In this document: in pieces, positions 34,205 through 61,814 of the stretch
How the letters are laid out: the number at the start of each line of letters is the position of its first letter
How positions within the stretch are numbered: the first letter of the stretch is position 1
Assembly: GCA_002070505.1 (NCBI GenBank)
Contig: MWDJ01000015.1
Location: forward strand, 1 to 63,951
Length of the DNA stretch: 63,951 nt
DNA from: Bacteroidetes bacterium ADurb.Bin145
GTDB taxonomy: Bacteria; Bacteroidota; Bacteroidia; Bacteroidales; VadinHA17
Direction of reading: 5' to 3'
Notes under the pieces: generated by a model
Seen by the model: only the letters and a program-made list of their open reading frames with translations
The model's database searches: none
Told to the model about the DNA's origin: nothing
Made by a program: the position numbers and the translations under genes

Positions 34205-35362
34205 CTATTTAAATATCCTCTGGGCGAAATCATGGAGTGATTTTCTCCAGACCTGCCATTCATGTGCTCCGGGAAAGGATGCAAACGTAACATTTAATCC
34301 TTTGTCCCTGAATGTCTGAATTAGCTTCTTTGTTGGCTCTATCCGTGGATCCTGTTCTCCTACTGATATATAAAAAACCTTAAGTTTTTTATTGAACGAG
34401 GCAGGATTTGACAGTAGTCCTGGTATTGTGGCTTCGGCATCAAATGCCATGGCTCCTCCACCTGGTTGTCCGATGCCGCCAAAGAGTCCTGTACTGAATA
34501 CCCCTACATTGGCAAAAACATCAGTATTACGCAAGCCTGTATAAAAAGCCTGACCGCCACCCATTGATAAACCGGATATAGCTCTGTTCTGCGCTCCGGA
34601 TTTTACCCTGTAATTCTTCTCGATGAAGGGGATTATATTATCTATAAGTTCATCCTTAAAGACAGCCATGGCTTCATCATTATAGCCTCCGGCCTGCGTG
34701 CCGGGGCGGGATACATTACCATTGGGAATTACGACTATCATTGGTTTTGCTTTTCCTTCGGCGATAAGATTATCGAGAATAATATCTGTTTTTCCCTGGA
34801 TTGCCCAGCCTCGTTCATCTTCGCCCCCGCCATGCTGAATATAAAGGACAGGGTATTGTTCTTTCCCTGAATTGTCATAACCGGGTGGTGTGTAAATATT
34901 CAAACTTCTCCATGTGCCGGTAACTTTCGAAAAGTATAGTTTGTGTCTTATATCCCCGTGAGGTACATCCTTAACTGTGTAAAAATCAGCACCAGGTTCC
35001 GGAATATCAATGGCACTCGACATCCTGCCTGTTCCATAAAAGGATTCACTTGCAGGGTCCGAAAACCTGAACCCGTCAATCACAAGGGAGTAATAATGAA
35101 ACCCGGGAACCTGCGGATCGGTCGTGACCTTCCAGATTCCCTTTTCATCTTTTTGCATATCATAAAGCTTGCCAAGGTCTACCTGTACATTCTTTGCCTG
35201 CGGTGCATTTACCTGGAAGACGACGCTGCCATCAGGCATTATACGCGGATATCGGGCATTCCCAATATTTGTCGGTGCCGGAATACCTTCTTCGGTATTC
35301 TGTGCATTTATCAGCCCCGCTCCGAGCAGAAGCAGGATGGATATTAAAATATTGTATCTCAT
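34205..35362 (-). CDS. CE1-like esterase with N-terminal E-set domain
   Basis: A 385-residue exported esterase of the esterase_D/CE1 type (feruloyl and acetyl-xylan esterases, with enterobactin-esterase-like relatives). A Sec signal (MRYNILISILLLLGAGLINA) is followed by an immunoglobulin-like E-set domain (about 40-120, FHYYSLVIDG and a DPxSE segment) and the alpha/beta hydrolase domain, with YPVLYIQHGGGEDERGW, nucleophile Ser266 in ISGLSMGGG and His367 in GAHEWQVW. It is the last of seven related esterases in this run and lies just beyond the DMT transporter gene. It lacks the low-complexity insert of several siblings. Exact ester substrate unknown. Confidence 0.88.
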   Translation of the reverse strand: MRYNILISILLLLGAGLINAQNTEEGIPAPTNIGNARYPRIMPDGSVVFQVNAPQAKNVQVDLGKLYDMQKDEKGIWKVTTDPQVPGFHYYSLVIDGFRFSDPASESFYGTGRMSSAIDIPEPGADFYTVKDVPHGDIRHKLYFSKVTGTWRSLNIYTPPGYDNSGKEQYPVLYIQHGGGEDERGWAIQGKTDIILDNLIAEGKAKPMIVVIPNGNVSRPGTQAGGYNDEAMAVFKDELIDNIIPFIEKNYRVKSGAQNRAISGLSMGGGQAFYTGLRNTDVFANVGVFSTGLFGGIGQPGGGAMAFDAEATIPGLLSNPASFNKKLKVFYISVGEQDPRIEPTKKLIQTFRDKGLNVTFASFPGAHEWQVWRKSLHDFAQRIFK

Positions 35363-35402
35363 TAGTTCAGATTGAGGTTAATAATTCGTTACCATGTTTC
35401 AA

Positions 35403-36407
35403 TTATGTATTCCTTGCCATAGTGATCAAAGCAAGTCCTGCAATGAAGCATATGAACATTATAGTAAGTAACCAGTTTGTCTTTTTTGGAGCTTCCCTGA
35501 ATTCTTTCCAGACAAATACTCCCCATGCAGCTCCGACCATTGTTGAGCCTTGTCCAAGCCCGTAAGATATTGCAGGTCCGGCCTGCTCAGCTGCTATAAT
35601 ACTGAACGAGAGTCCCATGGCCCAGATCATCCCTCCGATAATGCCGCTTATATGTACCTTAGGAGAAGTTTCTTTGTAATATTCTCCGTAAGTTGAGGCC
35701 CTTCCTTCTACAGGTCTGTACATAAAATAGGTGTTCCAGATAAAGCCTGACAGATAACAACCAATCGAGAATACAAGGACTGCAGAGTATGGAGTTAATT
35801 TTCCGGCTTCCGGATTGGAGAAGTTAAGGGAAATGCTATCAGCAACAAATCCGTAGAAAAATCCCATGATAATACCTGCAAGTACTGAAAGGATAACTCC
35901 TTTACGTGTATCGCCCTTGACTTTGGACGGGATAGTCTGATAAGCTATTGCATTGACTACAATTGCAACAACAACAAGCCCCACTCCTGCAAAAAGCAAC
36001 ACCGGATCACCTGTGGATTCGGAAATATAATTATAAATTACTCCTATGACCAATGCCAGGCCCACTGCAATGGGAAAAGCCACTGACATACCGGCTACTG
36101 CTGCTGCAGCTACCCACAGAAGATTTGAAAGATTAAATACTACCCCTCCGAGGAATGCGGAACCAAGAGATTTGATATCGGCCTGGCCAAGGTCCTTGAA
36201 CAGACTTCTTCCTTCAGATCCGATACTCCCGAGTGTCAATCCGAGAATAAGTGTAAAAATCACAATACCAAGGCAGTAATCCCAATAGAAAAGCGGATTC
36301 GGCCATGTTTTTGGTTTCAGGTTCATTGTATTTGCCCATGAACCCCAGCATATCATAGTAATAACGCAGAGGATCACGGCTAGCGGATAAGAACTGACAA
36401 TATACAT
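35403..36407 (-). CDS. DMT-superfamily sugar transporter (GRP/RhaT-like)
   Basis: A 334-residue integral inner-membrane protein with about ten hydrophobic helices and short loops. It resembles glucose/ribose uptake-type (GRP) and rhamnose-proton symporter (RhaT)-like members of the drug/metabolite transporter superfamily: early WGSWANT, GGVVFNLSNLLWVAAAA, and QGSTMVGAAWGVFVWKEF near the C-terminus. It sits inside the esterase cluster between two esterase genes. A role in sugar uptake after degradation fits, although a different small substrate is possible. Confidence 0.8.
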   Translation of the reverse strand: MYIVSSYPLAVILCVITMICWGSWANTMNLKPKTWPNPLFYWDYCLGIVIFTLILGLTLGSIGSEGRSLFKDLGQADIKSLGSAFLGGVVFNLSNLLWVAAAAVAGMSVAFPIAVGLALVIGVIYNYISESTGDPVLLFAGVGLVVVAIVVNAIAYQTIPSKVKGDTRKGVILSVLAGIIMGFFYGFVADSISLNFSNPEAGKLTPYSAVLVFSIGCYLSGFIWNTYFMYRPVEGRASTYGEYYKETSPKVHISGIIGGMIWAMGLSFSIIAAEQAGPAISYGLGQGSTMVGAAWGVFVWKEFREAPKKTNWLLTIMFICFIAGLALITMARNT

Positions 36408-36520
36408 AGTTTAATATTTAAGTATCATTTCTGCTTAGTCAGAAAGTCTGATAAAAATTTTGTACCCCATCCCTGCAGACCGAACCTGCTTTCCGTTCTT
36501 TGTAATACTGGCGTTTAAAA

Positions 36521-37813
36521 TTATTTAAAAAGAAGCTGCGTGAATCCATGCAGGCTCTTGCGCCAGGTCTGAAATTCATGTGCTGTGCCCGGCGCTTCAA
36601 AGTAAACATGTTTAATCCCGGCCTTCTCCAGCTGTTCATGAATGCTTCGTCCTGTACCTGCACCCTCTTTCGAACCCATGCTTATATAGAAAACTTTAAC
36701 CTGTTTAGCAAATTCTTCCGGTTTTAGGAGCAATCCGTTGTAGCCTGTCTCTACACCCGGAAAACCAAAGGGGGCGCTGAAAATACCTATATTTGCGAAT
36801 TTGTCAAGATTGGCCTGTGTGATCTGATAGGTCTGGGTTCCTCCAAGGGAAAGTCCTGCCATTGCTCTGTTTTCACGATTTGCCAGAGTTCTGAAGTTCG
36901 CATCAATTGCCGGAATAAGATCTTTTATAATAACTGACCCGAATCCATCCCAGAAGGAAGGCATGCCGCTGGGTCCCTGTCCCGGACCGCCAGGGCGTTG
37001 TCCCTGACCCGGTCCTGCACCCTGTGGAGGCTGTCCCTGTCCTTGTTGTGGTCTTGCACCTTGTGCCTGCTGACCCTGTCCCTGTCCTTGTCCGGGCCCG
37101 GCACCCTGGGCGCCTGCTCCTGCCGGACGGCGTGCGCCACCCATGCCCGCTGCAATACCTCCGTCTTCCATAACAACAATCATTGGTTTAGCTTTACCTT
37201 CAGCAATAAGATTGTCAAGTATGAAATTTGTGCGCCCCTGATTTGCCCAGGCACGCCTGTCTTCTCCCATTCCATGCTGGAGATAAAGGACCGGATATCT
37301 CTTGTCATTGTTCTTCATATAATCAGGAGGAAGGTAGACATATGCCTGCCTGGTCTCACCTGTCGATTCAGCAAAATACCAGAATGAGACAATCTGCCCG
37401 TGGGGTACTTTTTTTACGAGGTAAAAATCTACTCCTTCTTCAGGAACTTCAATACCGCTCATTACACGCCCTGATCCAAAAAAGGTCTCACTTGAAGGAT
37501 CATTAACCTCCACACCATTAATTCTCAGGTTATAATAATGGAATCCCGGGTCCAGAGGTGCAGTCACTCCTGTCCAGAAACCATCATCACCTAAGGTCAG
37601 TGCAGTGTTGCCCAGTCCAACCACAACGCTTTGAGCTTCCGGTGCTCTAACACGAAAAATGGCCCTGCGTTGTGCATCAATACGAGGGTACTCAGCCCCG
37701 ACAATATTTGTTGATGCAGGCTTTGAGTTTTGAAATAACTCATCAGTCTGACTAAATAAAGATCCATTTACTGTAAAAAATGCTGCGATGAGAAATACAG
37801 AAGTTTTATTCAT
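36521..37813 (-). CDS. CE1-like esterase with E-set domain and Gly/Gln-rich insert
   Basis: A 430-residue exported esterase of the same paralogue family. Signal peptide 1-21, E-set domain about 40-135 (GFHYYNLRING and DPSSETFFG), then the hydrolase with [17 protein letters not shown], nucleophile Ser322 in AMAGLSLGG and His412 in GTAHEFQTW. The distinguishing feature is a low-complexity insert of Gly, Gln, Pro and Ala (about residues 224-283) between a core strand and the FWDGFGSVIIKDLIP segment. The insert is likely a surface-exposed flexible loop. It is 18 bases from its neighbour at 37832, so probably cotranscribed. Confidence 0.88.
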   Translation of the reverse strand: MNKTSVFLIAAFFTVNGSLFSQTDELFQNSKPASTNIVGAEYPRIDAQRRAIFRVRAPEAQSVVVGLGNTALTLGDDGFWTGVTAPLDPGFHYYNLRINGVEVNDPSSETFFGSGRVMSGIEVPEEGVDFYLVKKVPHGQIVSFWYFAESTGETRQAYVYLPPDYMKNNDKRYPVLYLQHGMGEDRRAWANQGRTNFILDNLIAEGKAKPMIVVMEDGGIAAGMGGARRPAGAGAQGAGPGQGQGQGQQAQGARPQQGQGQPPQGAGPGQGQRPGGPGQGPSGMPSFWDGFGSVIIKDLIPAIDANFRTLANRENRAMAGLSLGGTQTYQITQANLDKFANIGIFSAPFGFPGVETGYNGLLLKPEEFAKQVKVFYISMGSKEGAGTGRSIHEQLEKAGIKHVYFEAPGTAHEFQTWRKSLHGFTQLLFK

Positions 37814-37831
37814 AATAATAATGTATATAAG

Positions 37832-39034
<1,203 letters not shown>

Positions 39035-39045
39035 TCAGAATTTCC

Positions 39046-39084
39046 CTCAGGGGCAGAAAGCAATGATTGTCCTTCTCCCCTGAG
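39046..39084. other. Intergenic hairpin between esterase genes
   Basis: CTCAGGGG at 39046-39053 pairs with CCCCTGAG at 39077-39084, and the adjoining AGAAAG and CTTCT segments extend the stem with a bulged C. There is no T-run on the minus strand. This may protect upstream mRNA or mark a processing site rather than end transcription. A similar GGGGAGAAG-type stem occurs after susD. Confidence 0.55.
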
Positions 39085-39116
39085 AGTAAACCCTGATTTA
39101 TGTGTATTATTTAATA

Positions 39117-41744
<2,628 letters not shown>

Positions 41745-41776
41745 TTATATCAGATTATTAGTTTGTTCTGGATATT

Positions 41777-43018
41777 TCAATCCCTGAAAAGAAGAAGTGA
41801 GAACTCGCGGAGGCTGCGTCTCCATGACTGCCACTCATGAGCGGTAAGTGGAGATACATACGATACACTTTTAATACCGGCTTTGTTTAATTCATCAGCA
41901 GCAGCTTTCAGACCATCGGCTCCGTTTTCACGGCTTCCGAAACTCATGAAAACCAATTTGAAATTCGAGTTTTCGGGGATGTCAGCAGGCGCAATGCTCC
42001 CGCCGCTGAAAATACCTATATATGAGAATTTATCCGGATGAGCAAGGGTGATCTGCCTTGTCACTCCGCTACCCATTGATAACCCGGCCATAGCCCGGTA
42101 CTGCTGATCGGAAAGCGTACGGAAATTACTGTCTACCCATGGTATCAGTTCGTTGATCATAACCTCTTCATAAGTGTTAAATGAAAAACGAAGACGCGGC
42201 GGTGCAGCTTGTCCCGGTTGTGCTGCCGGTGGTGCTGCTGCAGGAACGGGTTGTGCCCCCGGGGTTCTTGTTCTGGCAACTCCCGGTGCTCCCTGACGCA
42301 TTGCAGGGGGAGCTTCTCCAGGTTTGTAAGCTGCACTGGTTTCCATAACAACAATAAAAGGTTTAACTCTTCCTTCTGCTATCAGATTGTCAAGTATCAG
42401 GTTTGTCCGACCCATTTCAATCCATACCCTCTGATCTTCTCCTCCTCCATGCTGAAGATAAAGTACCGGATATTTTGCTGTTGTGTTCGTTTCATAATCC
42501 GGAGGTGTGTAAATATAAACATGCCGCCAGCCATTTGTAATGTTTGAAAAATAATTTTTGATCAACACATTGCCGTGAGGTACATCTTTAAGTTCATAAA
42601 AACCTCCGTCAGGATCAGGGATCTCAAAACCATTGCACATATGACTATAACCTATGAATGCGTCGGTAGCCGGATCCAGCATAATAGCGCTGTCAACTAT
42701 CATCCAGTAGTTATGATAACCTGCGTCCTGCGGTTCACTGGTATAGGTCCATACACCGCTGCTGTCTTTTACCATATCATAAGGAACGTTATAGATAGAA
42801 ACCTGAACTTTCTTCGCGTTGGGCGCGTTAAAGCGAAAGGTTACCCTGGAATCTGCTTCGATACGCGGGAACTGTGCCCCTGAGAGATTGTAGGGTGAAG
42901 GATGCGCTTCAAAAGTAAATGGAGCCGCATCTTTTTTTGGCCCTTTGCAGGCCTGAACCAGACAGATACCAGCAACTATCGTAACTGTCAGTAAAATAAT
43001 TCTTAGTGTTTTTCTCAT
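41777..43018 (-). CDS. CE1-like esterase lipoprotein
   Basis: A 413-residue paralogue with a lipoprotein signal (LVQAC, Cys24), unlike its Sec-exported siblings, so it is probably membrane-anchored. E-set domain about 60-135 with the same [16 protein letters not shown] segment as the 40458 protein. The hydrolase domain has [17 protein letters not shown], nucleophile Ser314 in [10 protein letters not shown] and His394 in LTAHEWQSW. A Pro/Ala/Gln-rich insert occupies about 238-273. A strong AGGAGG ribosome site precedes the ATG. Confidence 0.88.
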   Translation of the reverse strand: MRKTLRIILLTVTIVAGICLVQACKGPKKDAAPFTFEAHPSPYNLSGAQFPRIEADSRVTFRFNAPNAKKVQVSIYNVPYDMVKDSSGVWTYTSEPQDAGYHNYWMIVDSAIMLDPATDAFIGYSHMCNGFEIPDPDGGFYELKDVPHGNVLIKNYFSNITNGWRHVYIYTPPDYETNTTAKYPVLYLQHGGGEDQRVWIEMGRTNLILDNLIAEGRVKPFIVVMETSAAYKPGEAPPAMRQGAPGVARTRTPGAQPVPAAAPPAAQPGQAAPPRLRFSFNTYEEVMINELIPWVDSNFRTLSDQQYRAMAGLSMGSGVTRQITLAHPDKFSYIGIFSGGSIAPADIPENSNFKLVFMSFGSRENGADGLKAAADELNKAGIKSVSYVSPLTAHEWQSWRRSLREFSLLLFRD

Positions 43019-43069
43019 TTTAAAACCTCCTGTTAATTTTAGTTTTGATACTTTGTATATTTGACTTTT

Positions 43070-44197
43070 TTAATCTTTAAACAGAAGAGGAGCTGTTTCA
43101 TTGAGGAACTTCTTACAATTCATCCATGTATGCCCCCCGGTGGTAAAGAATGTCTGATATTTGATTTTTTTCTCATCAAGGACTTTAATATATTGCTGTA
43201 AAGTTCCATAGGTAGGGTCTTCTTTTCCGCAAGCAAAATAGAGAAGCTTTAAGCGCTTGTTTGTCAGTGCCGGATCGGCAAAAGGAACAGCATTGTTCCT
43301 TTCAAATTCTGCCTGCACCATCCCCGGCGCATAACCGCATACATATGCGAAAAGATCAGGATTGCCGAGTCCGATATATAATGAAGTGCCTCCGCCGCCT
43401 GAGAAACCTGCAATTGCTTTATTTTCCGGTCCCGGTTTAACCCTGTAGTTCTTTTCCACAAAAGGGACTATATAATTTTTAAAATCTTTCTGGAACTCCT
43501 GGAGATTTTCCCAGGTTCTTAAAGAGCCGGATTCTTTAGTTATCACAGGGAATGCCCTTCCATAAGGCATGACGATTATCATCGGTTTGGCTTTGCCCTG
43601 AGCAATCAGATTGTCAAGTATAATGTTAGCCCTGCCAACCTTGGTCCATGTCTCTTCAGTGTCTGATGAGCCATGCAGCAGGAAGAACACGGGGTATTTC
43701 TCGTTTACAGACTCTTCATATCCCGGAGGAGTATAGATTACCAAGGGCCTTGTCCCGAGCTCATTTGAATAATAATACCTGTACGACACTGTTCCATGAG
43801 GGATATTCTGGATGCTATATGCCTTTGGCGTTGCATCGGGAATTTCAATAACACTGTTCTGGAAGCCCTCGTTGGGAAAGATCCAGGTGTTTTTCGGATC
43901 AGCTACCTGTATGCCGTCCACAACAAAGCAATAAGGATAAATATCCGGTTCAACGGGGCCCAGGGTAATGCTCCATATTCCGTTCGCATCCTTTGTCATA
44001 GCTTGTTGTCCGTTTATAAACTGCGTACTTAACTTTACATCTTTGGCATTTGGCGCACGGAAACGGAAAGTAACAGTCCTGTCTTTCTTCACTTCAGGTG
44101 AAATGAAATTCTGCATGCCCGGCTGACCGCTCATCACGGATGAAGCAATAAAGAAAAATATTAGTGTATAAATCACACTTTTATTTATATTTCTCAT
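43070..44197 (-). CDS. CE1-like esterase, divergent paralogue
   Basis: A 375-residue exported esterase, first of the seven after susD. I chose the ATG at 44197; the longer frame needs a TTG at 44206. Signal peptide (1-23), a shorter E-set domain (about 40-115), and a hydrolase domain with YPVFFLLHGSSDTEETW and YNLI-like spacing to NLIAQGKAKPMIIVMPYG. The nucleophile motif is GFSGGGG (Ser266) rather than GLSMG, and the catalytic His (His356) is in GGHTWMNC, without the HEW/HEF pair of its siblings. It has no low-complexity insert. This gene is the most distant family member of the cluster and may differ in specificity. Confidence 0.85.
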   Translation of the reverse strand: MRNINKSVIYTLIFFFIASSVMSGQPGMQNFISPEVKKDRTVTFRFRAPNAKDVKLSTQFINGQQAMTKDANGIWSITLGPVEPDIYPYCFVVDGIQVADPKNTWIFPNEGFQNSVIEIPDATPKAYSIQNIPHGTVSYRYYYSNELGTRPLVIYTPPGYEESVNEKYPVFFLLHGSSDTEETWTKVGRANIILDNLIAQGKAKPMIIVMPYGRAFPVITKESGSLRTWENLQEFQKDFKNYIVPFVEKNYRVKPGPENKAIAGFSGGGGTSLYIGLGNPDLFAYVCGYAPGMVQAEFERNNAVPFADPALTNKRLKLLYFACGKEDPTYGTLQQYIKVLDEKKIKYQTFFTTGGHTWMNCKKFLNETAPLLFKD

Positions 44198-44275
44198 AGT
44201 CAACAATTTAAAGTTATAATAACCAGCCTTTAGATTCAGGGGGATTAATTACCTGAAAAGATACTGCTTTTTAGT

Positions 44276-44283
44276 CAAATCTA
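44276..44283 (-). promoter_or_regulatory. Candidate -7 element upstream of the esterase run
   Basis: On the minus strand this reads TAGATTTG, matching TAnnTTTG. It lies between the susD hairpin (44385-44416) and the first esterase ATG at 44197, so it could be an internal promoter that transcribes the esterases apart from susCD. No good -33 element is visible. Confidence 0.35.
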
Positions 44284-44384
44284 TGGAATTTACTTTAATT
44301 AAAATAATACTAAAAATGAATTTTCATGTATCATCCTGATTTACTAATTTCTGAAATCATGTTACTATTTGTTTTAACAAATTA

Positions 44385-44416
44385 AAGGGGAGAAGTTTAG
44401 GATCGCTTCTCCCCTT
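44385..44416 (-). terminator. Hairpin after susD, possible terminator/attenuator
   Basis: AAGGGGAGAAG (44385-44395) pairs perfectly with CTTCTCCCCTT (44406-44416) across a 10-base loop. On the minus strand the stem is followed by TAATTTG, a weak T-tract, so termination may be partial, as often proposed after susD in such loci. Confidence 0.6.
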
Positions 44417-44474
44417 AACCCACCACCTAAAATTACCTGCTTATATTAACATTTACCTGAAATTAACTGTGAGA

Positions 44475-45950
44475 TTAATCCAGCAGGTTTGGATTAACAT
44501 CGGTTTCTACGTTTGGAAGAGGCAGGAAGTATTTAATCGGGCCTTTGGGCTGAAGCTCATCAGGATCTTTCTTGTCAACAGTCTCCTGTACAAGCTGAAG
44601 ACGTACAAGATCGAACCAGCGGCAAAATTCTCCTGCAAATTCCCATCCTTTTTCCGTGATGATCTCTTTCTGTGTCAGCGATGTTGCATCAACAGCGGGA
44701 TTCGGAGTATTCAGCGGAAGACCGGCCCCGCGGCGTTTGATTTTGTTGAAAGCCTCAAGTGCGTCAGGATCAGAAGGATTTCCGGTTGCCATGATCTTAG
44801 CTTCAGCAAAATTCAGATAAGTTTCAGCCATTCTTTCAAGAGGCATAGATATTGCATTCACAAATGTTAATTTATTCCCCTGTAATTTTTTATAGTATGG
44901 ACGTTTGGTCTGATATTGAGTAAACGGGATCCATACACCATTTTTATCGTAGCCAACCTCGAAAGTGACATCTTTTCTGTAACCTGCCGGAAAGTCATAG
45001 AAGAATCTTAATTCACACATATAATCATCCCATCCTCCGCGGTCTCCAGGAATTGCTGCAATTCCGGCCCAGGCATTGGCGCTTCCTCCGGACATCTGCC
45101 CCTGGAAATTAAGTGCAAAAACTTCTTCCTTGTTTCCATCATTATTAACTGTAGCACTAACCCATAGTGATGCGAAATCGTCCATAAGACCAAGTCCATA
45201 AGTAGCCTGATTATCTATAACTTCCTTTGCTTTAGCAGCTGCCAGAGCATATTTTGTAGCATCATTAACCGGATAACCGGTCATCTGAAGATATACTTCA
45301 GCCAGAACAGCTTTGACAGTCCCCAGGCATATCCTTCCGGGCGCTGGTTTTTTATTTGCAACAAGTGTTTCTGCTTTTTGCAGGTCTGTAATTATCTGTG
45401 CATAAATATCTGTTATTGAAGAGGAACTAATGCTGAGTAATGCCTCATCAAAAATGTGTGAATTTAATACCAAAGGAGCTTTGCCCCACAGCCTGACAAT
45501 CCAGAAGTAATTATAAGCTCTCAGAAAGAGGGCCTCTCCTTCAATCTGGTTTAGTGTGGCCTGTACTCCGGTTGCATTAGGAATTGCGGCTATTATATTA
45601 TTGCACTGCTGAATTGATTTATATGCTCCTTTCCAGACAAACGGAAGTCGCTGATTTGTATTGTTGACAACAAACTGGTCGAATTCCCTGAAGTCAGCCT
45701 TATTACTTGCTTTATGAGTTGTAAGGTCGTCACTTCCCATAAGGATCGCAGCAGTGGAAGCATTTCCCAGACCCTGGGCCCATACCTGAGCCATCGGTTT
45801 ATAGGCTCCTGCCAATGCTGCAGTAAGACCGGTCACATCAGAAAGCGCACCACTGTCTGATGTAATGAGTCTCGAAAGATCTTCTTCATAGAAGTCACTG
45901 CATGAAGTTCCTATGAAAATAAGTATAAGTAAAAACAATATCTTTTTCAT
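44475..45950 (-). CDS. susD: SusD/RagB-family surface glycan-binding lipoprotein
   Basis: A 491-residue outer-membrane lipoprotein (lipobox GTSC) of the SusD/RagB family, which binds oligosaccharides at the cell surface and forms a lid on its SusC partner. The N-terminal TPR-like region (LTAALAGAYKPMAQVW and IEGEALFLRAYNYFWIVRLWG) and the C-terminal RWFDLVRL, PLPN-type and NPNL segments are typical of the family. Its 5' neighbour is a complete susC gene 55 bases upstream, so it is cotranscribed. Ligand specificity is not predictable by eye. Confidence 0.9.
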   Translation of the reverse strand: MKKILFLLILIFIGTSCSDFYEEDLSRLITSDSGALSDVTGLTAALAGAYKPMAQVWAQGLGNASTAAILMGSDDLTTHKASNKADFREFDQFVVNNTNQRLPFVWKGAYKSIQQCNNIIAAIPNATGVQATLNQIEGEALFLRAYNYFWIVRLWGKAPLVLNSHIFDEALLSISSSSITDIYAQIITDLQKAETLVANKKPAPGRICLGTVKAVLAEVYLQMTGYPVNDATKYALAAAKAKEVIDNQATYGLGLMDDFASLWVSATVNNDGNKEEVFALNFQGQMSGGSANAWAGIAAIPGDRGGWDDYMCELRFFYDFPAGYRKDVTFEVGYDKNGVWIPFTQYQTKRPYYKKLQGNKLTFVNAISMPLERMAETYLNFAEAKIMATGNPSDPDALEAFNKIKRRGAGLPLNTPNPAVDATSLTQKEIITEKGWEFAGEFCRWFDLVRLQLVQETVDKKDPDELQPKGPIKYFLPLPNVETDVNPNLLD

Positions 45951-46005
45951 ATATAAATAATTTTGATTTTTAAGATAATACAGAGTTCATAGTATTTGCT
46001 TAGAA

Positions 46006-49000
46006 TTAAAAGTTCAGAGTAACTCCAAAGGTCCATGTTTTAGCACCCGGATATGAACCGCCGTCACCTCCGCGCTGATCACCAGAACCCAGATTTGAAT
46101 ATGTTTCAGGGTCTATCCATTTATATTTTGTGAAAGTTAACAGATTTTGTGCACTTATCATGGCCGTAAGATCTCCCCACTTCAATATATTTCTTGGCAA
46201 AGCATACTGCAAACTTAAGTTTTTAAGCCTTAGGTAATTCCCACTTTCTATATATTCCGATGACTGTATCCTCGGAACATTCGTTTTACTGAAAGCTGCC
46301 ACCCTGGAGGTGGGATTGTCCGGAGACCACCTGTTTAATATATCCCTGTGAACATATTCACGTGCATCGGCTGCAGATATCATAATCTGGGCATAGGCAA
46401 AATCCCATTTCCCGTAATCCAACATTGATTGGAAAAATGCATTAAGGGTGAAATTCTTATACCTGAGGGTGCTGTTCAGTCCGAGAACTTTCTTTGGCAT
46501 CCCCGATCCGATGATCTGGAAATCACTTCCTGTAATAGCATAATCGCCGTTAACATCTTCATACCTGTAATCTCCCGGCTGATTTCCATATTTTGCTGCC
46601 AGCTCAGCATCTGCCACCTGCCAGATTCCAAGAGATTTAAATCCATAATAGCTCGAAATGCAATATCCTGGTTTAAGAATCATTTCGGGATTTGTCAGCA
46701 TACCTGCTCCTGCTCCACCGGAAGTTAAAATGAATGGATTGTCTCCGAGATCGGTTACTTCATTATGCAGGACCGACACGTTGAAATTCAGGTTCCACGA
46801 GAAATTTTTTCTTTCTATTACCCTTGCATTCAAATTAAACTCAAATCCGGAATTTCTTACTGCCCCTACATTTCTGTAAATACTTCCTCCACCCACATAA
46901 CCCGGAAGAGGTTCGCTCAGAAGAAGGTCTGTTGTGTTCTTCAGGAAATAATCAGCTTCAAGGGTGAATCTGTCTTTCAGGAGGCCCAGATCGAATCCCA
47001 CATTTGTTTGTGTGGTGGTCTCCCATTTCAGATTCTCATTACCCGGATTACCTATATTAATACCTGATGTCAGAGTGCCATTCAGCCAGGATGTTGCAGC
47101 TACATTAGCGGCAGTATTATAAGATGTCACTGTTCCATAAACATTGACAGCCTGGCTTCCTGTCTGACCCCAGCTGGCCCTTAGTTTCAAATTGCTGATA
47201 ACCGGAACTCCCTGCATAAACTCTTCTTCTGAAATACGCCATCCAATACCGACCGACGGGAAGACACTTGTCTGGTTTTTTCCTCGGAATTTGGATGAGC
47301 GGTCGCTTCTTATTGATGCTGTAACAAGGTACCGGTTCAACAGGTTATAATTGACCCTGCCGATATATGAGCCGATTGTTGACTTTGTGTAATTATTAGT
47401 AGTAGCATATGAATTAGCCAGTACTATATTATTGTATCTCAGGAAAGGAAATAATAAGACATTTGCTGTAACCCCAAAACTTTCGGCCTGCTGCCACTGG
47501 TATTCTGCCACACCTGTTATTATTATATTATGAATATCATTGAAAGTTCTGTTATATGTCAGCATGTTTGTATTCTGGAGGAATATTGTCTCATTGGAAG
47601 TACGTGAGGCAGATGGCTGATTGGTTTGTAAACTCTGATTGAAATTCTTTCCCTGAGTATTGTTATAATCAACACCAAATCCTACATCAAGTGATAATCC
47701 TTTAATGATCTGGTAAACAAAATTCCCGTTTGTGCTGAATGTATTTGATTGGTTAATAGCATCATTCGTTGCAAGTTCAATAGGATTCGTTTTAATTGAA
47801 CTGACAGGATCCACAAGTGTTAGTTTCCCGTTTGCATCATATGGAGGAGTTGTAGGTGCCCATGCTGTTGCTCCTGCTACAAGACTGTTTGTATTAAGGG
47901 ATCCCGATGTATTGTTCGTTTCTCTTCTGGCAAAATTCACCTTCAGAGAACCTCTGAGTTTTTCCGATAATTTTGCATCGATGTTTGTCCTTAATGAGTA
48001 TCTTTTAAAACCGGAATTTATAATTATCCCATCCTGATCGAAATAATTACCTGAAATGAAATATGTCACAGCGTCTGTTCCTCCCGAATAGTCCATCTGA
48101 ACTTCCTGTCCTCCGGCTGTTCTGAAGATCATATCCTGCCAGTCATATCCTCCGTTTGCTATAAAATCGGCTACCTGCTGGTCTGTAAACGGACGTGAAG
48201 ATCCTAAAACGTCAGCTCTTTCATTAGCGACCTGAGCAAATTCGCCAGCGTTCAAAAGAGGTATCTTCTTTAAAACATTGCTTACAAAATAGCGTCCCGT
48301 AACAGAAAGCTTTGGTTTCCCGACAGTACCTTTTTTTGTTGTTATCAACACTACCCCGTTAGCTCCCCTGCTGCCATATATAGCAGTTGATGAAGCATCC
48401 TTAAGGACCTGTATTGTTTCAATATCCGTAGGATTGACATTTGCCATATTCCCCCCGACAAATCCGTCAATTACATAAAGAGGCTCATTATTCCCGGTTA
48501 TTGAATTCGATCCTCTGATCCTTATGGATGTGGTACCTCCGGGTGCACCTGATACACTTGTTACATTTACTCCGGCGCTACGTCCCTGAAGTATATCATC
48601 AACGCGTACTACCGGTTGATTCTTGTATGTATCTTCAGTAACTGCTACGATAGATCCTGTAAGATCTGATTTCTTGGAAGTTCCGTATCCTACAACCACA
48701 ACCTCTTCGAGGCTTGATACCGAAGGTTCCATTGATACATTAATGGAACTTTTTCCCGCCACAGGAATTTTTTGTTGATTGTAGCCAACAAACGAAAATA
48801 CAAGTACTGCATTCTGGTTGCTTACTGTAATTGAATATTTCCCGCTGGCATCCGAGATAGTCCCGATTGTCGTTCCTTCTACCTGAATATTAACGCCCGG
48901 CATAGGACTGCCAATTTCATCAGAAATTACACCTGATATTACCTGCTGCTGAAGCGCCATCAAATTATCCGGATCGTCTGCTAAAACCCTTGTATTTCCA

Positions 49001-49092
49001 AGGGTTAACATAAATCCGGCAAAGACAAAGCTTAGAAGAACTATTTTAAGTGGGCACTTAAATAATTCATCCCTTGTTGGAGTTTTTTTCAT
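46006..49092 (-). CDS. susC: SusC/RagA-family TonB-dependent receptor
   Basis: A 1028-residue outer-membrane transporter. Signal peptide, carboxypeptidase-regulatory-like domain at about 50-130 (GVISDEIGSPMPGVNIQVEG), TonB-box/plug start SLEEVVVVGYGTSKKSDLTGS near 127-147, plug domain (about 140-260, IRIRGSNSITGNNEPLYVIDG and YGSRGANGVVLITTKKG) and a long beta-barrel with C-terminal Phe. It has no N-terminal STN domain. It would import oligosaccharides with the SusD at 44475. A 574-bp stretch of its barrel coding region is identical to the neighbouring STN-susC gene. Confidence 0.93.
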   Translation of the reverse strand: MKKTPTRDELFKCPLKIVLLSFVFAGFMLTLGNTRVLADDPDNLMALQQQVISGVISDEIGSPMPGVNIQVEGTTIGTISDASGKYSITVSNQNAVLVFSFVGYNQQKIPVAGKSSINVSMEPSVSSLEEVVVVGYGTSKKSDLTGSIVAVTEDTYKNQPVVRVDDILQGRSAGVNVTSVSGAPGGTTSIRIRGSNSITGNNEPLYVIDGFVGGNMANVNPTDIETIQVLKDASSTAIYGSRGANGVVLITTKKGTVGKPKLSVTGRYFVSNVLKKIPLLNAGEFAQVANERADVLGSSRPFTDQQVADFIANGGYDWQDMIFRTAGGQEVQMDYSGGTDAVTYFISGNYFDQDGIIINSGFKRYSLRTNIDAKLSEKLRGSLKVNFARRETNNTSGSLNTNSLVAGATAWAPTTPPYDANGKLTLVDPVSSIKTNPIELATNDAINQSNTFSTNGNFVYQIIKGLSLDVGFGVDYNNTQGKNFNQSLQTNQPSASRTSNETIFLQNTNMLTYNRTFNDIHNIIITGVAEYQWQQAESFGVTANVLLFPFLRYNNIVLANSYATTNNYTKSTIGSYIGRVNYNLLNRYLVTASIRSDRSSKFRGKNQTSVFPSVGIGWRISEEEFMQGVPVISNLKLRASWGQTGSQAVNVYGTVTSYNTAANVAATSWLNGTLTSGINIGNPGNENLKWETTTQTNVGFDLGLLKDRFTLEADYFLKNTTDLLLSEPLPGYVGGGSIYRNVGAVRNSGFEFNLNARVIERKNFSWNLNFNVSVLHNEVTDLGDNPFILTSGGAGAGMLTNPEMILKPGYCISSYYGFKSLGIWQVADAELAAKYGNQPGDYRYEDVNGDYAITGSDFQIIGSGMPKKVLGLNSTLRYKNFTLNAFFQSMLDYGKWDFAYAQIMISAADAREYVHRDILNRWSPDNPTSRVAAFSKTNVPRIQSSEYIESGNYLRLKNLSLQYALPRNILKWGDLTAMISAQNLLTFTKYKWIDPETYSNLGSGDQRGGDGGSYPGAKTWTFGVTLNF
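46159..46732. repeat. 574-bp tract identical to the neighbouring susC (copy 1)
   Basis: Every base from 46159 to 46732 equals 49498-50071 (offset 3339), inside the C-terminal barrel coding region of the two susC genes. The sequences diverge abruptly at both ends (for example c/t before 49498/46159 and a/t after 46732/50071). This is a direct repeat left by recent recombination or gene conversion. Confidence 0.95.
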
Positions 49093-49344
49093 AAGTAATT
49101 GGTTTAGGGTTAATAAATATTAAAATATTACCTGACAGATTGTCGGGTATCAAATTTTTTAATTAAGATCTTATGAACTATCTGTTATTATCATATCTTT
49201 AAGTTTAATAATCAGATATGTATATATAAATATGTCTTCATGCCTCTGAAGGCAATAATAAACATCCGAAATGGACAATACTAATACCCTTATCTTTGAT
49301 AAATCTCACAAAGAAAATCAGGAATATTTTTCAAAAAATCTGTA

Positions 49345-52300
49345 TTAAAAGCTTAAAGCCAGTCCGAAAGTCCATGTTTTGGCCCCCGGATATGCACCCC
49401 CGTCACCTCCGCGCTGATCACCAGAACCCAGATTTGAATATGTTTCAGGGTCTATGCCTTTATATTTTGTTATAGTAAAAAGATTTTGCGCACTTACCAT
49501 GGCCGTAAGATCTCCCCACTTCAATATATTTCTTGGCAAAGCATACTGCAAACTTAAGTTTTTAAGCCTTAGGTAATTCCCACTTTCTATATATTCCGAT
49601 GACTGTATCCTCGGAACATTCGTTTTACTGAAAGCTGCCACCCTGGAGGTGGGATTGTCCGGAGACCACCTGTTTAATATATCCCTGTGAACATATTCAC
49701 GTGCATCGGCTGCAGATATCATAATCTGGGCATAGGCAAAATCCCATTTCCCGTAATCCAACATTGATTGGAAAAATGCATTAAGGGTGAAATTCTTATA
49801 CCTGAGGGTGCTGTTCAGTCCGAGAACTTTCTTTGGCATCCCCGATCCGATGATCTGGAAATCACTTCCTGTAATAGCATAATCGCCGTTAACATCTTCA
49901 TACCTGTAATCTCCCGGCTGATTTCCATATTTTGCTGCCAGCTCAGCATCTGCCACCTGCCAGATTCCAAGAGATTTAAATCCATAATAGCTCGAAATGC
50001 AATATCCTGGTTTAAGAATCATTTCGGGATTTGTCAGCATACCTGCTCCTGCTCCACCGGAAGTTAAAATGTAAGGATAGTATCCGAGATTCATAACTTC
50101 ATTATGCAGGACCGACATGTTGAAATTCATGTTCCATGAAAAATTATTCCTTTCCATTATCCTTGCATTCAAATTAAACTCAAAACCGGAATTCCTTACT
50201 GCACCAACGTTTCTGTAAATATTCCCTCCTCCTACATATCCCGGCAGTGGTTCGCTCAGAAGAAGGTCTGTAGTGTTTTTCAGGAAATAATCAGCTTCGA
50301 GGGTGAACCTGTCTTTTAAAAGACCAAGATCGAATCCAATATTTGTTTGTGAAGTGGTCTCCCATTTCAGATTCTCATTACCCGGATTACCTATATTAAT
50401 ACCTGATGTCAGAGTTCCATTCTGCCAGGATGTTCCTGCCAGTATTGCTGATGTATTATATGAAGTTACTGTTCCATAAACATTTACAGCCTGGCTCCCT
50501 GTCTGACCCCAGCTGGCCCTTAATTTTAAATTACTGATAAGCGGCAAGTCCTGCATAAATGATTCTTCTGAAATACGCCAGCCAAGACCGACTGAAGGGA
50601 AGACACTTGTCTGGTTTTTTCCCCGGAACTTTGATGAGCGATCTGTCCGTACAGACAGTGTGATAAGATACCTGTCGTGCAAACTGTAATTTACTCTCCC
50701 TATGTACGATCCTATTGTCGATTTCGTAAAATCATTTGATAGAGAATAAGTTTTAGCTAAAGTAATATTGTTATATTTTAAAATAGGAAACAACAGATCT
50801 GCAGCTGCAGCCATATAGTAATCATTTCTCTGAAGCTGGAATTCAGCTGCAGCTGTCAGAGCAAATTTATGTATATTATTAATGGTCTTGCTGTAAGTAA
50901 GCATATTTGTGTTTTGCAGAAATATTGATTCACTCGAAGAACGAGAGGCTGTCGGATTCTTTGGCATAAGACTTTGGACAAAGGTCTTTGCCTGTGTATT
51001 ATTATAGTTCATACCGAATCCAAGATCGAGCGTTAATCCGCTCATTATCCTGAATATTATATTCCCAATTGTATTAAATGTATTGGATTCATTAATGTTG
51101 TCATTCATTGCAAGTTCAATCGGATTGATCTTTATTGAAGAGATTGGATCCGCAAGTGTAGGTATACCGTTTTCGTCATATGCCGGAGTAGTAGGGGCCC
51201 AGGCAGTTGCGCCGGCTACCACTCCGCTTGTAGTGTAATCTCCTGATGTATTATTGGTCTCTCTTCTGGCAAAATTAACTTTCAGTACACATTCGAGTCT
51301 CTCAGATATTTTCGCATCAAGATTTGTCCTTAAAGAATATCTCTTAAAATCAGAATTGATAATAATCCCTTTCTGGTCAAGAAAATTACCTGAAACAAAG
51401 AAAGTCACGGCATCACTTCCTCCTGAATAATCCATCTGTAATTCCTGCCCCCCGGCTGTCCTGAAGATCTCTTTCTGCCAGTCAGTTCCGCCATTGGCGA
51501 TATAATAGGAAACCTGCTCATTTGTAAAGGGACGGGCATAACCTAACACATCGGCCCTTTCATTGCATACCTGTGCAAACTCACCTGCATTGAGCAAAGG
51601 CCATAGTTTTAACGGATTGCTGACATAATATCTTCCTGTTACTGAAAATCCCGGTTTTCCTATGATCCCTCTCTTGGTTGTTATAAGTACCACACCGTTA
51701 GCTCCCCTGCTGCCATAATATGGCAGTTGATGAAGCATCCTTAAGGATCTGTATCGTTTCGACATCGGTTGGATTGACATCTTCCATATTCCCACCTACG
51801 AATCCGTCGATTACGTACAGTGGTTCATTGCTTCCTGTTATTGAATTGGCTCCCCTTATCCTGATAGAGGTTGTTCCTCCCGGCGCCCCGGAGACATTTA
51901 TTACATTTACTCCACCGGCTCTTCCCTGAAGGATATCGTCAACACGTGCAACCGGCTGGTTCAGGTATATGTCCTCAGAAACTGTCGCGACAGACCCTGT
52001 CAGGTCTGATTTCTTGATAGACCCATATCCGACAACTATTACTTCCTTAAGATTCGATACGGAAGGTTCCATTGATATATTGACAGAAGTCCTTCCTTCT
52101 ACGGGAATTTTCATTTGTTTATATCCGATAAACGAAAATACAAGAACTGCATCGGGGTTACTTATATTAAGTGAATATCTCCCCCTGTCATTTGATATGG
52201 TCCCTAATTTGGTTCCTTCTATATGAATATTTACTCCGGGTAATGGATTGCCATATTCATCCGAAGCAATCCCTGATACTGTTACTACCTTATTAAACTC

Positions 52301-52612
52301 CAGATAATCAGGAGATAGAATTATCTTATTATTGATTATTGAATATTTAATATTGGTATTTTTAAACAACTCATCAAGCAAATTGCTGATTATCTTATCC
52401 TTTGCATTAATCGTAACTTTTTGCGCTGTATTAATCAGCTTCTCATTAAAAAGGAAGAAATATCCTGTTTCCTTTTCAATCCTTTCAAATATACTGATGA
52501 GTTCCGTATCTGTATAATTTAAAGAAATTCCAGCTTCCTGCGGATAACACCATAAGGTTGTTATCATTATCAGAAGCATCCCGGTAATTAATTTCTTCAC
52601 ATGTGAATACAT
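49345..52612 (-). pseudogene. STN-domain SusC/FecA-type TonB receptor, frameshifted
   Basis: Two minus-strand frames belong to one gene: 52612-51698 (signal, STN domain, carboxypeptidase-regulatory-like domain, plug start) and 51795-49345 (rest of plug and barrel). The STN domain (about residues 28-100; SLNYTDTELISIFERIEKET) marks a transducer-type receptor that signals to a FecR anti-sigma factor, found next door. In the plug, the expected ASSTAIYGSRGANG becomes ASSTAILWQQGS then stop: compared with the intact susC at 48361-48420, one extra base lies within 51713-51722. The C-terminal barrel is intact and closely related to the neighbour. Either a real inactivation or a sequence error; both halves look under purifying selection by eye. 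Confidence 0.85.
49498..50071. repeat. 574-bp tract identical to the neighbouring susC (copy 2)
   Basis: Second copy of the identical tract described at 46159-46732. It covers a stretch of barrel strands. Outside it the two genes differ at many positions. Confidence 0.95.
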
Positions 52613-52777
52613 ATCCTTAATGAATTATGTTCAACCTTATAAATCCAAGATATCCTGTAATATATTAAGTCAGATATATAGAAAAACAGAGGAGTTGAAT
52701 TTATCATATAGTCTCAGGTCTGATCTGAAGTTCAAAAACCGCATCATTTCCGGATTAACCAGACATTAATATGAAAA

Positions 52778-52785
52778 CAAAATTA
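52778..52785 (-). promoter_or_regulatory. Candidate -7 element of the STN-susC gene
   Basis: Reads TAATTTTG on the minus strand, matching TAnnTTTG, about 166 bases before the ATG at 52612. No -33 element is evident; chance match is possible. The gene may instead depend on the neighbouring ECF sigma factor. Confidence 0.25.
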
Positions 52786-52907
52786 AATAAAAACTAAGGT
52801 TATTTAATAATCTCGGCAGAAGAACCTGGCAACAATTTGCAAAATAGTAAAATAATGGAAGAAACGAGGGTGTCTCAAAAGCCTGAAAACCACCCCTTGC
52901 CCCCTAA

Positions 52908-53220
52908 CTACCCTTTATACACATCTTTTAATTCACTTATATTATAAGCTGGAGATTCCTCATTACGTCCCGCTGGGGCGTGACTTCATTCGGAATGACA
53001 CGGTGTTTTTATGTGTAGTAGGGGGAATGAGGCGGGGCGTTTTGCCAGAAGGCTGTTTCAAGAAAAAAATTATATCAAAACGCCCCGCCTCATTCCCCCT
53101 TATCCCCAAGGAGACCGTGTCATCCCGAACAAGTTAATCCTGAGGGTTTACGAAGGATTAACGAGTGAGGGATCTCCTCCTTTCGGCAGAGAATAAAAGA
53201 AGGATGTGTATAAAGGGTAG
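52908..53220. repeat. Nested palindromic (MITE-like/REP-like) element
   Basis: Outer 18-bp arms CTACCCTTTATACACATC (52908-52925) and its exact reverse complement (53203-53220). Intermediate arms include GGAATGACACGGTG-type sequence near 52992-53005 against ACCGTGTCATCCCGAA near 53114-53129. An inner 25-bp arm at 53020-53044 (AGGGGGAATGAGG, then CGGGGCGTTTTG) matches 53076-53100 exactly as reverse complement, with a 31-base centre. The TCATTC/ATCCCGAA-type segments resemble dispersed Bacteroidota repeats. No transposase is present, and no target-site duplication was identified. Confidence 0.75.
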
Positions 53221-53275
53221 TGTCCCCTAAAGGGGGTTCTCTAGAATCCTGAATTTCAATAAGTATTGGATATAT

Positions 53276-54349
53276 TCAGTTTATTGATATATCCTTCAAC
53301 ATCCGGATTATGATTTTTTGTTTCTGAAAGGTGCTGTCGGGCAGCATTTCTCCCGGAATAATTTCATAACTAATCGGAGATGTCATTGCCAGGAACTTAA
53401 GAATATCTTCAATTTTATCATCCTGGAAAGTCCCCCTGAAAGAATAACTTTCAAGTTGCTGGTCAACAAGTTCAATATCAACATTATACCATCGGGCGAT
53501 CCTTCTGGCCACTTCTCCCATGGAGTCTCCTCTGAAAACAAGCTTCCCTTCAGTCCAGGCATTATATTTGGAGGTATCAATTACCGATTTACTGAGGTTC
53601 CCGTTGCGGAGTATAAGCCGCTCCGATGGCATTAATCTTATTTTCTCTTCACTGTCTTTATTGAAGAATTCGACTTCGCCCTGTGTGAGGATTATTTCAA
53701 GATATTTTTCGTCAGGGTAAGCACTTAAATTGAAAGATGTACCAAGTACTTTGATTGTTGAATTCAAAGCATTAATGATAAAGGGATGCTCTGCATCATA
53801 TTTTACTTCAAACCAGCCTTCTCCTGAAAGTTCAATCTGCCGGTCATTATTGAATGGGAACGAATAACTTATAGTGGAACCGCTGTTTAACATCCCGGTG
53901 GTACCATCGGGAAGGGTGAAAGATATCCTTGATCCCAGGGGTGCGTAAATAGTAGAACTTACTGACTCAGCGACTGCCGGAGCTGCGTTCCTTTTATTTA
54001 GGTACAGCAATCCTCCCGCAATTATCAAAGGTATAAGCATTACAGCAGCTGCCTTCATGTAAAATCTCAGGATCTTCCTTACAGGTTTCTGGCTTTCGCC
54101 AAATTCATTATTCTTTATTATCTGATATATATTTCCAAGCAGGTTGCCGTCCAATTTTCGATGATCCGGAACTTCTTCCATGATTTTATTAAAATCCTTT
54201 TCCAATGAACTGCGCAGAAAAGAGTTTGTCTCGCCGTTCAGAAATAACGATTCCATTTCAGATCTCTCCTTTTCATCTGAAATGCCTCTGATGAATTTTT
54301 CAATTTTTGTTTTTGTCTCTTTTTCCAAAATATCTGTATTAAAAATCAA
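53276..54349 (-). CDS. FecR-family anti-sigma factor
   Basis: A 357-residue inner-membrane regulator. Cytoplasmic N-terminus (1-98) with an anti-sigma-type helical segment, one transmembrane helix (about 99-117) and a periplasmic FecR domain: TIYAPLGSRISFTLPDGTTGMLNSGS, then SGEGWFEVKYDAEHPFII, which is the family core. It should hold the ECF sigma at 54467-55051 until the STN-SusC transmits a substrate signal. The start is a TTG at 54349; no upstream ATG is in frame and the next Met is residue 32, within the N-terminal domain. A rare start codon or wrong N-terminus is possible. The palindromic element lies between it and susC. Confidence 0.9.
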   Translation of the reverse strand: MIFNTDILEKETKTKIEKFIRGISDEKERSEMESLFLNGETNSFLRSSLEKDFNKIMEEVPDHRKLDGNLLGNIYQIIKNNEFGESQKPVRKILRFYMKAAAVMLIPLIIAGGLLYLNKRNAAPAVAESVSSTIYAPLGSRISFTLPDGTTGMLNSGSTISYSFPFNNDRQIELSGEGWFEVKYDAEHPFIINALNSTIKVLGTSFNLSAYPDEKYLEIILTQGEVEFFNKDSEEKIRLMPSERLILRNGNLSKSVIDTSKYNAWTEGKLVFRGDSMGEVARRIARWYNVDIELVDQQLESYSFRGTFQDDKIEDILKFLAMTSPISYEIIPGEMLPDSTFQKQKIIIRMLKDISIN

Positions 54350-54466
54350 AAATATGCTTTAGCGGGTATTAATTATCTGACCTTATACCCTTGGGATATA
54401 TTATTCTCATATTTAAAAATTAAATATTTGACTAAAATCCTTTAACATTATATAAAAGTGCTCATT

Positions 54467-55051
54467 TTAAGGATTAAAATCATCAGCGATAAATTTAAGT
54501 CTTGATTTAATGAAATTAATTGATGCTGATATATAATTATCAACAGTCCCGGGAGATAAACCAACATCTTCTGCGATTTCCTTTGTCGATTTTCCCTCGT
54601 ACCTGCTCTTAATAAAAACAGTTTTCTGCTTCTCGGGCAACTTTTCAATTATCTTTTCCAGGCTGTCTATCAATGATTTGTAATCAATACTTCGTTCCAT
54701 TTCGGAAGATGGATGGTTTAAATAAAGGATCTCATTTACAAATTCTTTATTGTATTTCCGTTTTCTGAAGAGTTTACACATATTATTATAGGCTATTGTG
54801 AAAATGAAGGATTTAAATGAAGTATCCGTTTTTATCTTCTTTCGTAAATCCCATATTTTAACAAATATCGATTGCACCATCTCCTGTGCTTCATCTTCAG
54901 ATCTGAGATATTTCAGTGCAAATCTGTAAAGGTTAACGGCATACCTGGAATAAATGAGTTCGAAAGCCCTTATATCATCTTTATGAAGCCTGGTTATAAG
55001 CTCATTATCAGGATATTCAGTTTTTATATTTAAATCATTCCGGGCTGGCAC
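54467..55051 (-). CDS. ECF-type RNA polymerase sigma factor
   Basis: A 194-residue ECF sigma factor. Region 2 spans about 15-90 (AFELIYSRYAVNLYRFALKYLRSEDEAQEMVQSIFVKIW) and region 4 about 125-180 (IEKLPEKQKTVFIKSRYEGKSTKEIAEDVGLSPGTVDNYI, the HTH). It is directly upstream of the FecR gene, 117 bases apart, in the Bacteroidota order sigma-FecR-SusC. It probably drives the esterase locus in response to substrate. The gene uses a GTG start at 55051; no ATG earlier in the frame is supported. Confidence 0.9.
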   Translation of the reverse strand: MPARNDLNIKTEYPDNELITRLHKDDIRAFELIYSRYAVNLYRFALKYLRSEDEAQEMVQSIFVKIWDLRKKIKTDTSFKSFIFTIAYNNMCKLFRKRKYNKEFVNEILYLNHPSSEMERSIDYKSLIDSLEKIIEKLPEKQKTVFIKSRYEGKSTKEIAEDVGLSPGTVDNYISASINFIKSRLKFIADDFNP

Positions 55052-61578: not shown

Positions 61579-61676
61579 CCTGTCAGATTTCCTTTAATTC
61601 AATGGCCATTCGATGGTTATTCATGGTCATTCATGGTCATTCAATTGTAATTCAATTGTAATTCGATTGTTTGACT

Positions 61677-61814
61677 ATGAATGACAGCGAAGCGAATGAC
61701 AGCAAAGCGAATGACAGCAAAGCGAATGACAGCAAAGCGAATGACAGTAAAGCGAATGACAGCAAAGCGAATGACAGCAAAGCCAACGACAATGTTTATT
61801 ACCTCCCAGTATAA
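61677..61814 (+). CDS. Possible 45-residue repeat peptide (NDSKA)n
   Basis: An ATG at 61677 opens a frame through the tandem repeat: M, then NDSEA, six NDSKA-type units and NDNVYYLPV, ending at a TAA (61812-61814). The frame remains open only because the repeat unit is 15 bp. No ribosome site or homology supports translation. I list it because the region is otherwise unexplained; a non-coding repeat is more likely. Confidence 0.15.
   Translation: MNDSEANDSKANDSKANDSKANDSKANDSKANDSKANDNVYYLPV
61679..61783. repeat. 15-bp tandem repeat, seven copies
   Basis: Seven copies of GAATGACAGCAAAGC (first copy GCGAAGC, fifth copy AGTAAAGC), with an eighth degenerate copy to 61798. Upstream direct repeats at 61620-61645 (TGGTCATTCA) contain the complementary GTCATTC, so the two arrays can pair. 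No spacers, so not a CRISPR array. Confidence 0.9.

Follow-up and report, generated by a model that had tools for sequence, protein, structure and literature searches.

The stretch analyzed here (the window) is the whole of contig C15, 63951 bases long, from the 218-contig genome of Bacteroidetes bacterium ADurb.Bin145, and its subject is a run of genes on the minus strand in which a SusC/SusD pair is followed by seven esterases resembling those of carbohydrate esterase (CE) family 1. The run opens with an extracytoplasmic-function (ECF) sigma factor (54467..55051; PF08281/PF04542) and a FecR-type protein (53276..54349; PF16344/PF04773), continues through an STN-SusC-like receptor, here termed SusC2 (49345..52612), SusC itself (46006..49092; TIGR04056, 867.9 bits), which at 1028 residues is the longest open reading frame (ORF) in the window, and SusD (44475..45950; PF14322/PF07980), and then passes into the esterases E1 to E7, with a DMT-type permease between E6 and E7 (35403..36407; ureide permease/RhaT-like, matching PF07168 and PF06800, with TIGR00776 below cut-off). 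Pfam models recover all of these genes where a first-pass annotation of the bare sequence had placed them. The STN-SusC receptor of that annotation is indeed present, but not as a single ORF: it is spread over two ORFs (51698-52612 and 49345-51795) that are read in different frames and overlap at 51698-51795, i.e., it carries a one-base frameshift in this assembly, which reflects either a real gene loss or an assembly error.

Esterase family, catalytic triads and ancestry

Downstream of SusD lie E1 (43070..44206; triad S269-H359-D330), E2 (41777..43018; S314-H394-E364), E3 (40458..41717; S321-H401-E371), E4 (39117..40442; S344-H423-E394), E5 (37832..39010; S276-H374-E342), E6 (36521..37813; S322-H412-E383) and, beyond the permease, E7 (34205..35362; S266-H367-D338), all on the minus strand. 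Each of the seven matches PF00756 above its cut-off, with E-values from 2e-15 to 1e-26 that settle the matter of chance for the observation itself, and each has by alignment a complete Ser-His-Asp/Glu triad, the acid being Asp in E1 and E7 but Glu in the remaining five. In a PDB search with a profile of all seven, the CBM48-CE1 feruloyl/acetyl-xylan esterases rank first. The alignments to solved structures also cover the N-terminal CBM48/E-set domain, both for the profile and for E1 and E3-E7 compared singly (E2 entered only within the profile), while the Pfam CBM_48 model matches E1 only, and below cut-off. The best model in NCBIfam for the three esterases scanned is a xylanase/feruloyl esterase, at 160-291 bits below a cut-off of 1200 set for a two-domain protein.

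The seven are not alike in their nearest solved relatives: 6NE9 is the best match of E5 (566 bits), 6RZO that of E4 and E3 (443 and 328 bits), 7B5V that of E7 and E6 (358 and 347 bits, with 6MOU nearly equal for E6 at 340) and 8BBP/6RZN that of E1 (232 bits). According to PMC7815789 (cited from excerpts, as are the other papers below), 6MOU is BACINT_01033, a feruloyl esterase, and 6NE9 is an acetyl-xylan esterase in which Tyr295-Pro296 is suggested to hinder ferulate. PMC8040265 refers to 6NE9 as a putative acetyl xylan esterase at one point and as a putative feruloyl esterase at another; hence, its activity label is not beyond doubt. Among the seven, E5 alone has an NYP motif, and E1 alone has the GFSGG nucleophile motif, together with HTW where the others differ between HEW and HEF; the motif differences to which the first-pass annotation drew attention are thus real. 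As the nearest characterized enzymes or clades differ from one paralog to the next, differing ester specificities are well supported as a prediction from sequence, as is the proposal that the array would de-esterify a highly acylated glycan.

Phylogeny places the divergence among the paralogs far back. Pairwise identity among E1-E7 is 32-69%, and in a tree built from 107 of the 165 sequences that were usable, selected by locus, each of them groups with members from other genomes in a clade supported at SH-aLRT 99-100. The array is thus a shared collection of old subfamilies rather than a fresh burst of duplication, and a sevenfold, recent, lineage-specific duplication was rejected on these grounds. 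E2 and E3 form the only fairly young pair, and even this pair is found together in another genome (G070, locus L158).

Low-complexity inserts beside the active site

Inserts rich in Pro, Ala, Gly and Gln occur in E2, E3, E4 and E6 (Pro/Ala/Gly/Gln in E2, Pro/Gly/Ala/Gln in E3, Gln/Gly/Pro in E6), between the strand that ends in P-(M/F)-I-(I/V)-V and the helix after it, and are probably disordered. That of E4 (residues 232-308, ~77 residues; 39519..39749, minus strand) is largely tandem repeat, consisting mainly of a 75-bp unit (39535-39727; 2.6 copies, 99% matches); in the structure model, the core is confident and the insert has a predicted local distance difference test (pLDDT) score below 50. 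With 118 residues up to the nucleophile, the E4 loop is the longest of 132 loops found by motif in 174 ORFs, a count in which a few loops overrun the nucleophile. The E6 loop contains a 39-bp repeat (36999-37084). GC-rich minisatellites within the coding sequences of E4 and E6 thus extend a loop close to the active site. Nine of the ten aligned relatives of E4 lack its insert, and L091 has a different one; similar low-complexity loops appear in a Verrucomicrobiales locus (L130) and in others.

The position of the inserts can be matched to solved enzymes. The wtsFae1A/wtsFae1B structures (6RZO, 6RZN), of which 6RZO is the nearest to E4 and E3 and, with 8BBP, 6RZN the nearest to E1, resemble the array members in having a long flexible loop at the active site (excerpts of PMC8040265); unlike E4, however, 6RZO has only about six residues between the two matched stretches at the position of the insert. 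The same source describes the flexible loop that joins beta2 to alpha2 as a proposed determinant of specificity, and notes that no model could be built for residues 493-508 of DmCE1B_ct. Counting from the nucleophile in the alignment with E7, these residues fall at the same spot as the inserts. The corresponding loop (221-233 / 220-240) is the main difference between two CE1 structures in the excerpts of PMC7815789, which call its contribution unknown. Among the titles listed in a search on low-complexity or flexible CE1 loops, none names such inserts, an empty search being no evidence of absence. It can be speculated that CE1 arrays gain their diversity when this one specificity loop expands again and again by low-complexity sequence, independently in several subfamilies, and that minisatellite copy number could tune substrate access, giving a slip-strand-variable array against heterogeneous acylated xylan; this is rather unlikely.

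Divergent genes and the company of these esterases elsewhere

The first-pass annotation had described the run as free of glycoside hydrolases (GHs), which is correct for that minus-strand run only: a clan-A GH-like protein (55390..56601; PF02836 above cut-off, PF00150 below) and a GH43 with an F5/8 type C domain (60004..61578; PF04616) lie immediately divergent from it on the plus strand. Between them are an Sde182-like (DUF1593) protein (56653..58107; PF07632/PF21027) and two BD-FAE esterases, both matching PF20434 above cut-off (58132..59049, 252.5 bits; 59046..59957, 96.3 bits). Beyond GH43 comes a third SusC-like gene, SusC3 (62175..63951), whose ORF runs off the contig; as the contig stops inside this gene, the locus is possibly incomplete, i.e., it may be cut off, on the right. 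The NEP and GE motifs of the clan-A protein, presumably catalytic, are conserved in three orthologs; nine residues right after NEP, present in both orthologs aligned, are absent from it, and its structure model is poor (mean pLDDT 47.3) and was not used. On the other side of the array, a PF00135 carboxylesterase (27270..28841, minus strand) is possibly a distal member of the set.

The linkage of these genes to the esterases was assessed by searching three window neighbors (clan-A GH, GH43 and PF00135) over 62 genomes of the genus, which avoids choosing loci by their esterases. The clan-A GH occurs in 4 other genomes; in 3 of them an esterase is its neighbor, and in the fourth it is a contig-end fragment beside a SusC3 relative. 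GH43 occurs in 5 others, adjacent in 3 and apart in 2, and the PF00135 esterase occurs in 6 others; of the 4 whose contigs were examined, 3 have this esterase family on the same contig, whereas in G024 the two are apart. The esterases on the PF00135 contig of G022 are only 33-42% like those of the window. Further links are a 72% relative of the Sde182-like protein next to an E3 relative (L076), relatives of the second BD-FAE beside esterases in L091, L124, L157 and L165, and an 86% relative of SusC3 beside a clan-A GH relative (L185).

Similar associations emerge from the related loci, taken as the best 80 of at least 585 confirmed matches (a simple gene caller gave no esterase ORF in L085, L098 and L128). 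Pfam families PF09206, PF01120, PF06964, PF03629 and PF22244 are taken here to stand for GH54, GH29, GH51-like, CE6-like and CE15 proteins, respectively. At least three of these esterases are found in 11 of the 80 loci, and the stretch fetched contains a GH in 10 of the 11: GH95 and GH43 (L066), GH127 (L072), GH95 (L074), GH127 and two GH54 (L076), GH29 with CE15 (L079), GH43 (L091), GH54 (L110), GH2 and GH3 (L121), GH10 and GH3 (L124), and, by blastp only, GH3-like and GH51-like genes (L122); the exception is L113. Within the genus, GH127 and GH67 (L157) or GH3 and GH127 (L163) accompany arrays; E1-like esterases stand with window-type GH43 and PF00135 genes, GH54, GH127, GH51-like and GH97 (L181); the clan-A GH and GH43 flank E2/E3-, E4- and E5-type genes in G062; and GH43 lies beside E5 with GH127, GH3 and a PF00135 esterase in G082. 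Orthologs of the window's divergent genes are often on one strand with the esterases elsewhere, beside arabinoxylan-type GH families. Another cluster of esterases in the genome under study itself (L045) adjoins a SusD and is accompanied by GH127, GH43 and GH54.

A further parallel is a one-strand run in G016 (L154/L155), in which ECF, FecR, SusC-like (in two pieces) and SusD-like genes, a DUF362 protein and a clan-A GH (79%) are followed by relatives of E3, E4, E5 and E6, two E1-like genes, a SASA esterase and another E1-like gene, and then by GH127, a GH76-like protein, GH54, GH97 and two GH43. Its seven successive CE1-like genes, with a single SASA esterase among them, also dispose of the notion that seven is a unique number. 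ORFs resembling hybrid two-component systems (HTCS) lie upstream in L154 and L156.

The tandem SusC genes of the window share 574 consecutive identical bases (46159-46732 and 49498-50071), while being 42-88% alike outside this block in 150-base steps, which reflects either recent gene conversion or an assembly artifact. The sole close SusD relative found (66%) is on a 3.9-kb contig of G070, where it is preceded by a SusC fragment 79-80% identical to the window's over the last 80 residues and followed by one gene and then the start of a CE1-like esterase. Among the loci of SusD relatives (L051-L063), none of the 13 has one of these CE1 esterases; in L054, a BD-FAE relative adjoins SusD.

Several further features of the window can be recorded. 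A beta-lactamase-fold serine hydrolase (31121..32680, minus strand), which has 65% relatives near arrays in L156 and L182, scores 405.5 bits against a 3-succinylated cholic acid synthase model, below its cut-off of 800. A PF12146 alpha/beta hydrolase at 29922-30928 is in two pieces as separate ORFs, and tandem arrays of 11-bp (61595-61664) and 15-bp units (61679-61791) lie between GH43 and SusC3.

Known loci, likely substrate and competing explanations

Esterase-rich SusC/SusD loci are already known. The esterase genes-enriched polysaccharide-utilization locus (EGE PUL), described in 2021 for feruloylated arabinoxylan, is defined by more than two esterase genes, with up to five reported (excerpts of PMC7815789). 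With its SusC/SusD pair, seven PF00756 genes downstream of SusD and two divergent BD-FAE genes, the present locus is a member by that definition. Multi-esterase SusC/SusD loci have thus been described before; the present one differs in esterase number, regulator and arrangement. The B. intestinalis EGE PUL (PMC7815789) likewise has SusC/SusD, more than two esterases, including CE1 with an N-terminal Ig-like/E-set domain, and GH43, and its BACINT_01039 (6NE9) is the nearest solved relative of E5; in contrast, it has five putative esterases against seven CE1-like and two BD-FAE here, three GH43 and a GH3 against one GH43 and one clan-A GH before the contig end, and an HTCS, which is typical of that locus though outside the EGE definition, where ECF/FecR is found here. 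PUL 17 of Dysgonomonas mossii (PMC8040265) is similar in coding for several distinct CBM48-CE1 enzymes, DmCE1B_ct being nearest to E6 and E7, but it comprises 39 proteins with GH8, GH10, GH67, GH115 and others, and has a CE1-CE1 fusion and three CE proteins. BD-PH_PUL30 combines BD-FAE with five predicted CEs (CE1, CE6), but has four putative arabinofuranosidases (GH43, GH51), and the excerpts of PMC8165983 describe no seven-gene CE1 array.

In light of these comparisons, the run is probably part of a large, rearranged, esterase-enriched PUL, most likely for (glucurono)arabinoxylan. SusC and SusD would import acetylated and feruloylated xylo-oligosaccharides; E1-E7, presumably exported, would strip acetyl and hydroxycinnamoyl groups from different positions, along with the two BD-FAE and perhaps the PF00135 esterase; and this would open the way for GH43 and the clan-A GH, as well as for GHs encoded past the contig end or at other sites of the genome. 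The ECF/FecR pair and the STN receptor may sense the substrate, and the permease and the ECF/FecR pair would serve uptake and control. As to arabinoxylan GHs, which are typical of EGE PULs though outside their definition, the window, on a truncated contig, has GH43 and the clan-A GH, and the xylan GHs are in relatives only.

A number of observations weigh against this assignment. Esterase activity of the array is itself a sequence-based prediction, and DmCE1B_ct showed minimal activity on model substrates (excerpts of PMC8040265). No xylanase, GH3, GH67/115 or HTCS was recognized among the window ORFs scanned with Pfam, several ORFs at 1-15 kb being outside the scan. In L183 and L184, GH43 does not adjoin such esterases but lies apart, as does PF00135 in L187; L113 has four CE1-like esterases and no GH recognized; and E7 orthologs in L064, L065 and L116 keep other company (PQQ protein, cupin, RraA-like, IlvD-like). 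SusD matches at E<=1e-30 are absent in 10 of 11 relatives picked for strong esterase matches, and the window SusD is at most 41% identical to any SusD in 60 relatives. The genomes with the clan-A GH (4) and GH43 (5) all belong to the 8, out of 61, whose esterase matches are strongest, but the hypergeometric values (1.3e-4 and 9.4e-6, respectively; 4.0e-4 and 4.2e-5 at a looser cut of 10) are not true probabilities, since the genomes are related.

The absence of a recognized xylanase from the window would also suit a locus for another acylated plant glycan, e.g., feruloylated pectic arabinan or acetylated xyloglucan. GH127, GH54, GH51-like, GH95, GH97, GH29 and GH2, families that include arabinan or xyloglucan activities, are all found in loci with these esterases; however, GH10, GH3, GH67 and CE15 accompany arrays in L124, L157, L163 and L079, and the xylanase/feruloyl esterase model, albeit below its whole-protein cut-off, is the best for the three esterases scanned, which leaves such a substrate quite unlikely.

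The reading favored in the first-pass annotation, in which an ester-rich substrate is taken up by a locus with esterases but no glycosidases and the divergent GHs are unrelated neighbors, draws on the GH-free minus-strand run from ECF to E7, on L113 and on L160 (G005:C60:5314-26271) of the same genus. L160, the closest to such a locus, is an ECF-FecR-SusC-SusD operon followed by eight esterases (one PF00756 of 576 residues, four CE1-like, two PF00135 and one GDSL), with no GH recognized inside, and then by an old-yellow-enzyme-type reductase and a peroxiredoxin. However, the L160 operon has a GH3-like ORF ~2 kb upstream, and L177 in G029, a partial relative of the operon, contains a GH3-like gene. 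Given that in other genomes the divergent GHs and CEs of the window keep company with these very esterase subfamilies, and that the contig is cut short, a glycosidase-free specialist is unsupported and very improbable. L113 itself (15.9 kb, on the same contig as L159, judging by length and gene content) also holds a peptidase M28 and an EstA-like protein beside its four CE1-like genes. A siderophore/catecholate system, suggested by the ECF-FecR-STN receptor architecture, by the enterochelin-type esterases within PF00756 and by weak matches to the enterochelin esterase model NF007758, is hardly credible: for the three esterases scanned, these matches score 20-36 bits where the cut-off is 222, the xylanase/feruloyl esterase model gives 160-291 bits, and SusD is present; siderophore esterases were rejected on the NF007758 scores.

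The xylan of cereals and grasses is harder to break down because of its feruloyl and acetyl groups. The six old CE1 subfamilies assembled in this esterase-enriched locus, common to the genus and beyond, offer a panel for asking which ester each of them removes and why so many have been kept, and the variable low-complexity loop provides a direct, testable handle on their specificity.

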